From the IMG/VR virus record IMGVR_UViG_3300007735_000624, positions 1 to 32,807 of that record: 32,807 bases of DNA; one strand, 5' to 3'. The DNA comes from a virus. Below the pieces are notes generated by a model. The model had not been told where the DNA came from. It saw only the letters and a list, made by a program, of their open reading frames with translations, and made no database searches. Of this stretch, positions 28,238-32,807 are shown one piece after another. The translations under genes and the position numbers were made by a program. Within the stretch, counting starts at the first letter, position 1; the number at the start of each line of letters is the position of its first letter.

Positions 28238-29098
28238 ATGAAGGTAAATAGATCATCTTTCGAGCTGACTTCTAACAAAGATTTTAAGAATATAGGCTTA
28301 ATCTCAGATGTTCATTTCGGTAGTAGTAGCTTACTCAAGAAGGCTCTGAAGAGCGACCTAAATCGTATGGCTGAGGCTGAGGCCGAGATAGCCATAAATG
28401 GAGATCTCTGGGATTTCATTCTCCCTTCTGATATAAAGAGGTTCGATTTAGATGCTCTGGATAGAGAGCTCCTAAAACAAGGAGTAAAGCCTTTAGATGC
28501 GGCTCTGGATATGGCTTATGAATACCTAAAGCCTTATGCTTCTCTGATTAAATTTATTGGAATAGGGAACCATGAGGCTCACGTTAAGAAGCGTCATCAT
28601 ATCTGCTTAACCTCTATCCTGATAGATAGGTTAAATCAGCTACCTAATGTTAACGTAGAGCCTGGAGGCTGGTGCGGATACTGGCATATAACTCTTAATT
28701 TATTTAATGCTCATCTTCCCTTCGTGCTCTACCGTCATCACGGAGCAGGAGGAGGAGCTCCAGTTACAAAAGGGATAATGGATTTCCAGAGGCTAATGGC
28801 TTGGCACGGTAACGTAGATGCTCTCTGGCTAGGTCATAACCATTATAAGAAAGTCTATCCTGATGTTAAGATGATTCTGGATATTAAGAATAATAAGGTT
28901 TATCAAAAGAACGTATGGTGCATTAGAACGGCTAGCTACCTTGATACCTATGGGCTGGAAACTGCTCCTAGCTATGCAGAAGGCTGGAACGTATCTCCTC
29001 AGCCAGTCGGAGGAGTTATCCTGAAGCTCAAGGCTCAGGAAACCATAGTTAATAAGAAGAGAATTAGGCAAATAGCGTGCGAACCTTTGCAATGGTAG
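28238..29098 (+). CDS. calcineurin-like metallophosphoesterase
   Basis: The 286-residue protein has all five motif blocks of the metallophosphoesterase fold: DVH at Asp24/His26 (ISDVHFG), GD at 55-56 (AINGDLWDF), GNHE at 110-113 (GIGNHEAH), a RHHGAGGG histidine block near 170, and GHNH near 200 (LWLGHNHYKK). It should hydrolyse phosphate esters using two metal ions, possibly on nucleic acid ends or nucleotides. Its place in the lysis segment does not explain its role. It may act on host or phage DNA late in infection. Confidence 0.88.
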   Translation: MKVNRSSFELTSNKDFKNIGLISDVHFGSSSLLKKALKSDLNRMAEAEAEIAINGDLWDFILPSDIKRFDLDALDRELLKQGVKPLDAALDMAYEYLKPYASLIKFIGIGNHEAHVKKRHHICLTSILIDRLNQLPNVNVEPGGWCGYWHITLNLFNAHLPFVLYRHHGAGGGAPVTKGIMDFQRLMAWHGNVDALWLGHNHYKKVYPDVKMILDIKNNKVYQKNVWCIRTASYLDTYGLETAPSYAEGWNVSPQPVGGVILKLKAQETIVNKKRIRQIACEPLQW

Positions 29099-29527: not shown

Positions 29528-30343
29528 ATGGAAGCAGAAAGAGTAGAGAGAAAGATACAGCTAACAGAAGTACCTCTAGCCAGCCTAAAGAATCACCCAA
29601 AGAACGCCAGAAAGGGAAACGTAGCAGATATCAAGAAATCTCTGCTCTCTCACGGTTGCTACTTACCTCTGGTTATCCAGAAGAGTACTAACTACGTCTT
29701 AAAAGGTAACCATACTCTTATAGCCTTAAGAGAGCTGGGAGTAGGAGAGGTATCTGTAAACATCTTAGACGTAGATGATATAGAGGCTCTGGCTCTTCTG
29801 CTGGATGATAATAGGAGCTCAGATAGTAGTACCTATAACCTGGATGAGCTGACTGATAGCCTGGCTTATCTCTCTAACTTGGGAGAGCTCTCTAAAACTT
29901 TGTACGATGAAGCTGATCTAGAGGAGCTCATTAACCAAACTCTACAAGGCTCAGAGCCTGAGGCTCAGCCTGAAGCAGAGAAGCCTGATACTAAGTACAC
30001 TAGGAAGATAGAGGCTCCTATTTATGAGCCTTCTGAGAAGAAGCCTGAGGTATCTGAGCTGTATAGCAGAGCTAAGGCTGATGAGCTAGAGCAGAAGATA
30101 AAGGAGCTGGATTTACCTTTTGAAGTCAGGAAGTTTCTCCTAGAAGCTACTACCCGTCATATAGTATTTAACTACTCTAAGATAGCTGATTTCTATGCTC
30201 ATTCTGAGCCAGAGGTTCAGAGGCTAATGGAAGAATCAGCTCTGGTTATTATTGATTTTAACCAGGCTCTAGAGCTTGGATATGTAAAGCTAACTCAGGA
30301 AATAGCCAGCCTCTACCAGGAGGATTATCCTGATGCTTCCTGA
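29528..30343 (+). CDS. ParB-like nuclease domain protein
   Basis: Residues 10-105 are a ParB/Srx-type domain: VPLASLKNHPKNARKGNVADIKKSLLSHGCYLPLVIQ, then YVLKGNHTLIALRELG (the GNHxxxA motif corresponding to GEHRxxA) and LLLDDNRSSD. The C-terminal part has an acidic linker (EPEAQPEAEKPDTKYT) and a helical domain (ELEQKIKELDLPFEVRKFLLEATTRH), a layout seen in phage ParB proteins encoded before terminases and DNA-modification genes. It is not linked to a ParA, so plasmid-style partition is unlikely. It overlaps the glycosyltransferase-like gene by 11 bases, suggesting they act together, perhaps on packaged DNA. Confidence 0.8.
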   Translation: MEAERVERKIQLTEVPLASLKNHPKNARKGNVADIKKSLLSHGCYLPLVIQKSTNYVLKGNHTLIALRELGVGEVSVNILDVDDIEALALLLDDNRSSDSSTYNLDELTDSLAYLSNLGELSKTLYDEADLEELINQTLQGSEPEAQPEAEKPDTKYTRKIEAPIYEPSEKKPEVSELYSRAKADELEQKIKELDLPFEVRKFLLEATTRHIVFNYSKIADFYAHSEPEVQRLMEESALVIIDFNQALELGYVKLTQEIASLYQEDYPDAS

Positions 30344-31205
30344 TGATTTCTGTATATTTATCCTGACTCATAAACGACCAGATAACCAGATCACGCTAGA
30401 AACCTTGAAGAGAGGTAACTACTCTGGGAAGGTTTACCTGGTCGTAGATGATTTAGATCCTACTCTTCCTGAGTATCAGAGGCTCTATGGAGATAAGGTA
30501 CTTACCTTCTCTAAGGAGGAGCTCTCTAAGAGGATAGATTCAGCAGATAACTTCAAGGAGCTGAAGGGAGTATTTTACGCTAGAAATGCTTGCTATGATC
30601 TGGCTCAGGAGCTGGGTATCTCTGAGTTTCTCCAGCTAGATGATGACTATGAAGCCTTCAGATATAGGTTTAAGGCTGATCTAGATTACTGTACTGCGAC
30701 TAAGAAGGTTAAAAGCCTTGATAAGATGTTAGCTTCATTACTTACTTTCTATAAGAGTAATCCTATCATTTCTCAGCCTATTTCTATCCTGGCTCTGGCT
30801 CAAGGAGGAGATTTCATAGGAGGATCTCAAGCCTCCTTTAGCTCTGCTATTAAGTGTAAAAGAAAGGTTATGAATTCTCTCTTCTGCTCAGTTAATAGGA
30901 GAGTTAGCTGGCTAGGGAGAATAAATGAAGATACTACTACCTATGTCTTAGGAGGGATAAGAGGAGAGCTGATGCTAACCATAAATCAGGTAGATATCAG
31001 CCAGGTAGATACTCAGGTTAACTCTGGAGGTATGACTGGGCTCTACCTTGATAATGGTACTTATGTAAAGAGCTTTTACTCAGTCTTATTCGCTCCATCG
31101 TGCGTAGCTGTAACTGAAATGAATAGCCAGTATAAGAGGCTCCATCATCAGATTAACTGGAATAATTGTGCGACCAAAGTATTAAGGGAGAAGTATAAAA
31201 GATAA
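30333..31205 (+). CDS. putative TAGT-like glycosyltransferase
   Basis: The 290-residue protein begins IFILTHKRPDNQITLETLKR and continues YSGKVYLVVDDLDPTLPEY, LYGDKVLTFSKEE, DNFKELKGVFYARNACYDLAQELGISEF and LQLDDDYEAFRYRF. These are features of a GT-A-type fold with a DDD metal/nucleotide-sugar motif at residues 103-105, closest in my recollection to the TET-associated glycosyltransferases of phages, which add sugars to modified bases. The C-terminal half has GGDFIGGSQASF, EDTTTYVLGG and VNSGGMTGLYLDNGTYVK. No TET/JBP oxygenase is visible in this genome. The gene sits between the ParB-like gene and the small terminase. Confidence 0.65.
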   Translation: MLPDDFCIFILTHKRPDNQITLETLKRGNYSGKVYLVVDDLDPTLPEYQRLYGDKVLTFSKEELSKRIDSADNFKELKGVFYARNACYDLAQELGISEFLQLDDDYEAFRYRFKADLDYCTATKKVKSLDKMLASLLTFYKSNPIISQPISILALAQGGDFIGGSQASFSSAIKCKRKVMNSLFCSVNRRVSWLGRINEDTTTYVLGGIRGELMLTINQVDISQVDTQVNSGGMTGLYLDNGTYVKSFYSVLFAPSCVAVTEMNSQYKRLHHQINWNNCATKVLREKYKR

Positions 31206-31603
31206 TGGAAGAGCAGAAGAAGAAGAGAGGTAGGAAGTGTACTTATAGCCTGGAGAAGGCTGATCTAATTATTAAGTACCTGGAGGCTGGAAATACTAAG
31301 AAGGCTAGCTATGAGGCTCTGGGTATAGATGCTACTACCTTCTACCGCTGGGTAGAGAAATATGAGAATTTCGCTAATCGTATAAAAGAGGCTGAGGCTA
31401 GAGCTGAGATCAGAAACGTAGCTATCATAAACAAGGCGGCTCAAACTTCCTGGCAGGCTTCCGCATGGTGGTTAGAGAGGAGAAGAAAAGAGGATTACGG
31501 TAAGAAGGAGCAGTTAGACGTAACGACTAATGGAAAGGATATAAACCAGCTCTCTGATGAGGAGTTAAATGCCAGGCTTGAATACCTCCTTAACAAGAGC
31601 TGA
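31205..31603 (+). CDS. terS: terminase small subunit
   Basis: The 132-residue protein has a basic start (EQKKKRGRKCTYSLEKADLI), a helix-turn-helix (AGNTKKASYEALGIDATTFYRWVEKYENF), a helical oligomerisation segment (ANRIKEAEARAEIRNVAIINKAAQTSWQASAWWLERR) and a short C-terminal tail that ends in LEYLLNKS. The small subunit recognises the packaging site on DNA and recruits the large subunit. Its ATG overlaps the previous stop, and its 3' end overlaps the large terminase gene by 35 bases. Confidence 0.88.
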   Translation: MEEQKKKRGRKCTYSLEKADLIIKYLEAGNTKKASYEALGIDATTFYRWVEKYENFANRIKEAEARAEIRNVAIINKAAQTSWQASAWWLERRRKEDYGKKEQLDVTTNGKDINQLSDEELNARLEYLLNKS

Positions 31604-32807
31604 GAAGCTGGAGCTCCTGAAGATACTAGAGCATAAGCAGAGCTTCAGCTCGTGGTATCAGGAAACCATACCCAGCTACTACTCCTTCCCTCCTCATATC
31701 CAGTACCTCTGCTCTCTGGCTGATAGAGTTATAAGAGGAGAGCTCCAGAATGTAGCTATCTCTTTACCTCCAGGTCATGGTAAAAGCCAAACTATAACGA
31801 CCAGGCTTCCTATCTACTGGGCTCTGAGAAATCCTACTGATGCAGTCGTATTTACTGGCTATAACCAAACTTTTGCTAATAAGAGCCTGAGTAAACCAGC
31901 TAGAGAGCTGGCTAAAGAAATGGGAATTCTGGCTCCTGATTCTGAGGCTATGGAAGAATGGAGCCTAACTAATGGAGCCAGGCTCATAGCCAGAGGAGTA
32001 GGCTCAGCTCCTACTGGGATAAATCCTATTAGCCTCCTAGTTTGTGATGATCCTATTAAAGATAGAGCTCAGGCTGAGAGCGAGGTAGAAAGGGATAATA
32101 TCTGGTCGTGGTGGACTGGCTCCATAGTTCAGAGATTCTATCCTAGAACTAAGGCTTTTGTAATCGCTACACGCTGGCACGAAGACGACTTAATAGGCAG
32201 GCTTAAAGCTCAGGCTGATGATAGCTGGACGTTCATTAACCTTCCTGCCATAGCTGAGGCTGATGATCCATTAGGGAGAGCTGAGGGAGAAGCTCTCTGG
32301 GAAGCTAAGCCTCTTCCCTTCCTAGAGCAGATAAGAGCTCAGGCTGGAGATTATAACTTTCAGGCTCTCTTTCAAGGGAAGCCAGCTCCTAAAGAAGGAG
32401 CTCTCTTTAAGGTAGATAAGCTGAAGTTCATAGACTATTCAGAGCTTCCTGAAGGCTTAGAGATGGTTAGGAAATGGGACGTAGCGGCTAGCATAGGGAA
32501 AGGAGATTATACGGCTGGAGTACTGCTGGGTAAAGATACTGCTGGGAGATTCTATGTCTTAGACGTAACAAGGTTTCAGGAGGGAACAGATCAGCGAAAT
32601 GCTAGGATGATAGCTACCGCTAGAGCTGATGGTACTCAGGCTAGGATTATAGTTCCTGAGGATCCAGGCTCTGCTGGTAAAGATGTAGCTCTAGCATTTA
32701 TAAGAATGTTCGCTGGATATACAGTTAGAGCAGTAAGGGAAACTGGAAGTAAAGAGCTTAGATCTGATATCTTTGCATCGCAAGTTAATGCTGGTAACGT
32801 CTATATA
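31569..32807 (+). CDS. terL: terminase large subunit (5' part, runs off the window)
   Basis: The 413 codons here encode the packaging ATPase and most of the nuclease. ATG 31569 follows GATGAGGAGTTAA and overlaps the small subunit gene. Walker A is SLPPGHGKSQ (about 65-74), Walker B is LLVCDD (156-161), and the coupling motif is ATRWHEDDLIGRL (about 200-212). The nuclease domain begins near KWDVAAS and includes VPEDPGSAGKD, then ETGSKELRSDIFASQVNAGNVYI at the edge. The continuation is at positions 1-128 if the window is circular, giving about 455 residues, but with a one-base break there. Confidence 0.95.
   Translation, partial: MPGLNTSLTRAEKLELLKILEHKQSFSSWYQETIPSYYSFPPHIQYLCSLADRVIRGELQNVAISLPPGHGKSQTITTRLPIYWALRNPTDAVVFTGYNQTFANKSLSKPARELAKEMGILAPDSEAMEEWSLTNGARLIARGVGSAPTGINPISLLVCDDPIKDRAQAESEVERDNIWSWWTGSIVQRFYPRTKAFVIATRWHEDDLIGRLKAQADDSWTFINLPAIAEADDPLGRAEGEALWEAKPLPFLEQIRAQAGDYNFQALFQGKPAPKEGALFKVDKLKFIDYSELPEGLEMVRKWDVAASIGKGDYTAGVLLGKDTAGRFYVLDVTRFQEGTDQRNARMIATARADGTQARIIVPEDPGSAGKDVALAFIRMFAGYTVRAVRETGSKELRSDIFASQVNAGNVYI

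Follow-up and report, generated by a model that had tools for sequence, protein, structure and literature searches.

A ParB-like protein and a TAGT-family glycosyltransferase, encoded by overlapping genes directly in front of the terminase genes of a phage, probably form a packaging-linked DNA-modification unit in which the ParB-like protein would act as the guide; we put the probability of this reading at roughly 60%. The window, by which we mean the whole stretch of 32,807 nucleotides that was analysed (IMG/VR record IMGVR_UViG_3300007735_000624), had been described in a preliminary way as carrying two overlapping genes upstream of terminase, one ParB-like and one TAGT-like, and both the arrangement and the assignments are borne out. 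To these we add a dedicated C-terminal domain of the ParB-like protein, here called CT, and a ParB-X-terminase slot that is shared with other phages. The features of the locus are as follows.

29528..30343, + strand: ParB-like gene, 271 aa (ORF; phrog_620, E = 1.8e-34; ParB/Spo0J/Noc structures by profile, E = 4e-10, and by fold)
29996..30301, + strand: CT domain, residues 157-258 of the ParB-like protein (homologue alignment; coupling to TAGT)
30333..30343, + strand: overlap of the ParB-like and TAGT genes, 11 bases (ORF coordinates)
30333..31205, + strand: TAGT glycosyltransferase, 290 aa, GT-A fold (PF20691, E = 6.3e-28; invariant columns; model; fold search)
31205..31603, + strand: terminase small subunit (phrog_4102, E = 4.9e-27)
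31569..32807, + strand: N-terminal part of the terminase large subunit, TerL (Terminase_6N/6C; the C-terminus lies at window bases 1-128)

The TerL gene is cut at the right end of the window and its C-terminus opens the window, with a frame change near base 23. A related sequence, L006, is continuous across this junction and has 6 bases there that are absent from the window. We conclude that the window holds a phage genome, circularly permuted and essentially complete, so that the absence of a gene from it is meaningful, and the idea that a TET gene merely lies outside the window can be discarded. Comparison with L006 (95.6% identical DNA) gives pN/pS values of 0.05 for the ParB-like gene and 0.075 for the TAGT gene, strong purifying selection which indicates that both are maintained. 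The same 11-base overlap between the two genes is found in the Haloarcula virus HHTV-2 and the Lactobacillus phage phi jlb1. Between the lysis genes and the ParB-TAGT unit lies a metallophosphoesterase-like gene (28238-29098; phrog_7339, DNA repair exonuclease, E = 2e-14). The nearest TerL from a cultured phage is that of Microcystis phage Mae-JY24 (46.8%), which makes a cyanobacterial host possible.

The 290-residue protein belongs to the TAGT family. Its match to PF20691 spans residues 8-232 and scores 98.5 bits against a cut-off of 27.5, it also matches phrog_842 (E = 6.8e-65), and the acidic motifs QLDDD (103-105) and INED (197-200) are intact, with D103-D105, E199 and D200 conserved. Structure prediction agrees with the profile search: the model is confident (pLDDT 91, pTM 0.90) and shows a compact, single-domain GT-A fold with no obvious membrane part. 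A fold search with this model returned GT-A enzymes at about 10% identity, among them ColGalT1, GnT-I, GalNAc-Ts, SunS and AvpGT with Ara-A (nucleoside-binding). The closest solved folds are thus mostly protein or glycan glycosyltransferases, and since the matches are of mixed type and so distant, the fold does not settle the substrate. The name does not settle it either. Although phrog_842 holds both this TAGT and the DNA glucosyltransferase of T6, the T6 TAGT (YP_010067197) scores only 37 bits and is missed by the profile of the clade to which this phage's TAGT belongs, a remoteness that keeps the T6 substrate from being simply transferred and led us to reject a function assigned by name.

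The ParB-like protein consists of an N-terminal ParB/Srx-fold domain (residues ~1-135), a linker and the CT domain of about 100 residues. By itself its Pfam ParB_N match is below the cut-off (E = 0.012), and its model matches ParB, Noc and Srx folds through the N-terminal half only. We considered a chromosomal or plasmid partition ParB and set this aside, as only the N domain matches, the C-terminus is CT, and TIGR00180 scores 14.7 bits against a cut-off of 58. CT is predicted to be helical, and a search of it against the PDB gave no match, the whole ParB-like model matching through the ParB domain only. Across 71 homologues, Y157, P164, Y166, F203, L204, R210, A220, Y223, E235, D243 and G251 are invariant, and S237 is present in 93%. 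Phage_Gene47 (L5) was tried as a relative of CT and rejected, with 21 of the 71 members matching at a best E value of just 0.006.

CT is the exclusive partner of TAGT. Starting from TAGT, CT was found upstream on the same strand in 123 of 124 loci, and in the sole exception the contig starts about 74 bases ahead of TAGT. Starting from CT, TAGT lay downstream in all 79 loci, and all 28 cultured phage records that match CT carry TAGT. CT is fused to the ParB half in 106 of the 123 loci and in others stands alone; the stand-alone form, with TAGT, adjoins replication genes, among them a DnaB-primase (L099), a beta clamp (L134), an AAA_25 ATPase (L106) and DUF1376 genes (L072). Sequence distances point the same way: over 56 dereplicated pairs, those of CT correlate with those of TAGT at r = 0.57, compared with r = 0.27 for ParB-N, a difference of 0.30 (bootstrap 95% interval 0.18-0.42).

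Several variants of the unit were seen. Some loci have two TAGTs (L109, L112, L121, L122 and L130, and L138 with one on each side of CT), and such tandem paralogues beside CT suggest a two-sugar modification in some phages. Genes for SAM methyltransferases directly adjoin CT-TAGT in L081 (4701-5465), L083 and L118 (122-964), and possibly decorate the sugar. In L011 and in Lactobacillus phage LL-Ku, TAGT looks degenerate, giving partial matches, and no ParB-CT gene was detected, which is consistent with a functional dependence.

The unit occurs in phages or prophages of about ten bacterial phyla and in one haloarchaeal virus. Cultured relatives include the Lactobacillus phages c5, phiLdb and phi jlb1, Haloarcula HHTV-2, Nocardia NTR1, Salmonella SPF_0923, Escherichia 673R7, Porphyromonas 005a and Vibrio phages; in most of them the ParB-like gene overlaps TAGT, and terminase is either next in line or a few genes further on. 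Prophage copies were found on contigs assigned to Pseudomonadota, Bacillota, Bacteroidota, Verrucomicrobiota/Kiritimatiellae, Desulfovibrio relatives, Gastranaerophilales, Actinomycetota, Spirochaetes, Cloacimonadota and Falkowbacteria, several of them metagenome-assembled genomes in which binning errors are possible. DNA of the E. coli pair, whole or in part, is present in 1575 of 5426 complete E. coli genomes (~29%), with at least 80% of the pair in 887, and ATCC 8739 carries an intact copy. The E. coli K-12 Rac gene ynaK encodes a truncated remnant of the ParB-like protein, and CT and TAGT are missing there (L146, 4878-5141; L147, 3001-3786; L237, 2501-3289), while RefSeq treats full-length copies in other E. 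coli strains (for example, the 262-aa one of ATCC 8739) as pseudogenes, incomplete and with the K-12 length. The unit is annotated as a partition protein and a hypothetical protein, or by a T6-derived name, and RefSeq calls some TAGTs 'GREB1-related'.

The position of the pair points to its target. Here, a gene with a ParB/Srx domain directly precedes a predicted modifying enzyme, next to terminase, and the ParB-N profile matches ParB-like genes of other phage loci at E values of 1e-13 to 1e-24, where CT is absent. Close before terminase, the place taken here by TAGT is taken by TET_JBP and ADDT in Mycobacterium phage Zemanar (Coopervirus), by DpdA with Que/preQ0 (7-deazaguanine) genes in Godines and Hilltopfarm, by a PAPS-reductase-like protein in Corofin and Wheelbite, and by a DNA methylase fused to ParB-N in Vincenzo and prophiT49-1. 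In Microbacterium phage Phonegingi (L156, 3004-4159) a ParB-like gene overlaps one for an acetyltransferase, with DnaB and SSB alongside and terminase not near, and the overlapping genes are perhaps a Mom-like modification pair. The simplest reading is that the ParB protein stays constant while the DNA-modifying enzyme next to it is exchanged, TAGT and its CT adaptor being one more cassette. That the slot is elsewhere filled by DNA-modifying enzymes points to DNA as the target of TAGT. DpdB, the partner of DpdA, is a ParB-like ATPase, and DndB has been assigned to the ParB superfamily (PMC12839542).

TAGT is not accompanied by a recognizable source of hydroxylated bases. Six-frame family searches of the window, with Pfam and/or PHROG covering nearly all ORFs of at least 90 residues, found no TET/JBP, no thymidylate-synthase/hydroxymethylase and no C5-methylase, so that the absence of an oxygenase, cytosine methylase, thymidylate synthase-like or hydroxymethylase gene, reported earlier, now holds over an essentially complete genome. 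Nearly all relatives with the ParB-CT-TAGT unit lack these enzymes as well: TET was found in none of 47 other records or genomes searched, and C5-cytosine methylase in none of 35 records, with well-known genomes positive as controls. Controls for the thymidylate-synthase family were positive in T6 (three places) and Vibrio pv27. For TET, 198 actinobacterial genomes intended as a positive control gave no match, and Zemanar was used instead, its match having an E value of 5e-8 yet falling under the Pfam curated cut-off. Vibrio pv27 has CT and TAGT together with a thymidylate-synthase-family gene, though this could simply be a standard thymidylate synthase. We saw no third gene accompanying the unit from locus to locus. 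We therefore rejected a TET/JBP-TAGT hypermodification system (no TET/JBP in the window or relatives), hydroxymethylcytosine glucosylation of the T-even type (no thymidylate-synthase-family pyrimidine hydroxymethylase in the window) and a pathway based on C5-methylcytosine (no phage C5-cytosine methylase). The preliminary description of a pair without TET was right about the absence, but its framing of a missing partner fits less well, since the T6 TAGT and the whole ParB-CT-TAGT lineage also do without TET. What we see is a lineage of its own and not a TET system with one component gone.

The window itself limits how far any modification could extend. Several palindromes are far below expectation (observed/expected: GGCC 5/82, CATG 17/85, CAGCTG 0/25, GGTACC 0/13, TTTAAA 0/13 and AAGCTT 0/12), which suggests that restriction remains a threat to the phage and that any modification is confined to part of the DNA or to specific sites; such avoidance makes global base replacement unlikely. 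GCGC and CCGG are likewise avoided, and the CpG odds ratio is 0.30. Mae-JY24, the nearest terminase relative, was dropped as a comparator (61% GC).

In the model that we favor, CT would dock TAGT onto the ParB domain, which would engage DNA in a nucleotide-dependent manner, in the way that DpdB serves DpdA. TAGT would then move a sugar from a host nucleotide-sugar onto phage DNA, at a limited set of positions or at specific sequences, giving protection from host nucleases. In the CT-only versions the replication machinery could replace the role of ParB, and a second TAGT, where there is one, could add a further sugar. Because no recognized enzyme makes a hydroxylated base, CT (or TAGT) may make or expose the acceptor, or else a gene that we do not recognize does so. 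It is possible, and we suggest it only tentatively, that CT and TAGT suffice for DNA glycosylation without any known base hydroxylation, either because CT is a novel enzyme creating the acceptor on an ordinary base or because TAGT glycosylates an unmodified base or DNA end directly, while ParB/Srx picks the sites. Several observations count against DNA modification: the lack of a recognizable enzyme to provide the hydroxyl, the avoidance of palindromes (which speaks against complete protection), the remoteness of the T6 TAGT, and the mostly protein or glycan substrates of the nearest folds. The literature yielded no experimental report of modified DNA for any phage of this lineage, and no study of whether DNA from the Lactobacillus phages of this type is restricted or modified.

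A protein or a cell-surface glycan had also been named as a possible substrate; we retain both as rivals, while CT and the slot favor DNA. Glycosylation of a protein, be it the ParB-CT partner itself through a conserved Tyr or Ser of CT or a replication, packaging or virion protein, would require no base hydroxylase, and would fit both an obligate partner with invariant Y157, Y166 and Y223 and a nearly constant S237, and the presence of the protein glycosyltransferases ColGalT1, GalNAc-T and SunS among the nearest solved folds. However, many further positions of CT show the same degree of conservation, as would be the case for a folded docking domain, the slot otherwise holds DNA-modifying enzymes, and phrog_842 unites TAGT with the T6 DNA glucosyltransferase, so we consider a protein substrate unlikely. 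We find it quite unlikely that a hydroxylated base is supplied by the host or by an unrecognized phage gene elsewhere, with TAGT then acting as in T6. The T6-type TAGT does act on hydroxymethylcytosine-based DNA and adjoins a thymidylate-synthase-family gene, and the gene of that family in pv27, if not an ordinary thymidylate synthase, would fit. Against this, the hosts span about ten bacterial phyla and include that of a haloarchaeal virus, we know of no hydroxylated DNA base common to them, and the ParB-CT-TAGT phage records searched have neither TET, thymidylate-synthase-family or C5-methylase genes nor a third gene that accompanies the unit. Finally, phages often carry glycosyltransferases that alter host surface glycans, but such a role, or one in lysogenic conversion, is very improbable for an enzyme with an obligate ParB/CT partner, a place between lysis or replication genes and terminase, a compact predicted fold lacking any obvious membrane part, no membrane gene alongside it in the window, and a distribution that takes in phages of many hosts and even an archaeal virus.

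Parts of this picture are already known. The T6 TAGT, credited with glucosylating glucosyl-hmC in DNA, exemplifies TAGT without TET, and a recent study reported TAGT without alpha-GT or beta-GT in 288 of 753 phage genomes (Nucleic Acids Res 2026 gkag531, PMC13216743). This phage type fits those solitary TAGTs; the study does not contain the word ParB, and the passages covered mention neither a dedicated partner domain nor a terminase slot. According to that source the T6 enzyme, a beta-glucosyl-HMC-alpha-glucosyltransferase, also has a GT-A fold by model, and it shares Pfam and PHROG families with the TAGT described here. In contrast, its neighbor is a thymidylate-synthase-family gene (presumably dCMP hydroxymethylase) and it has no CT domain, whereas TAGT here neighbors ParB-CT. 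Zemanar resembles this phage in the order of ParB-like gene 1, modifying enzyme and terminase, but has Tet_JBP and ADDT and no TAGT or CT at the locus. Godines (Rosebushvirus) and Hilltopfarm (Typhavirus) likewise have a ParB-like protein (ParB/DpdB) followed by a modifying enzyme (DpdA) and terminase, but that enzyme is a transglycosylase with preQ0 genes, its chemistry is unrelated, and CT is absent. Neither the CT partner nor the ParB-X-terminase slot turned up in the literature covered, which did not extend to Iyer 2013 and Burke 2021, where a prior description of ParB-TAGT is possible.

If DNA is indeed what is modified, the unit would represent a compact route to glycosylated DNA that bypasses the two known ways to a hydroxylated base, and it would bear on restriction between phage and host and on tools for DNA modification. 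With its intact copy of the unit, E. coli ATCC 8739 offers a direct way to test this.
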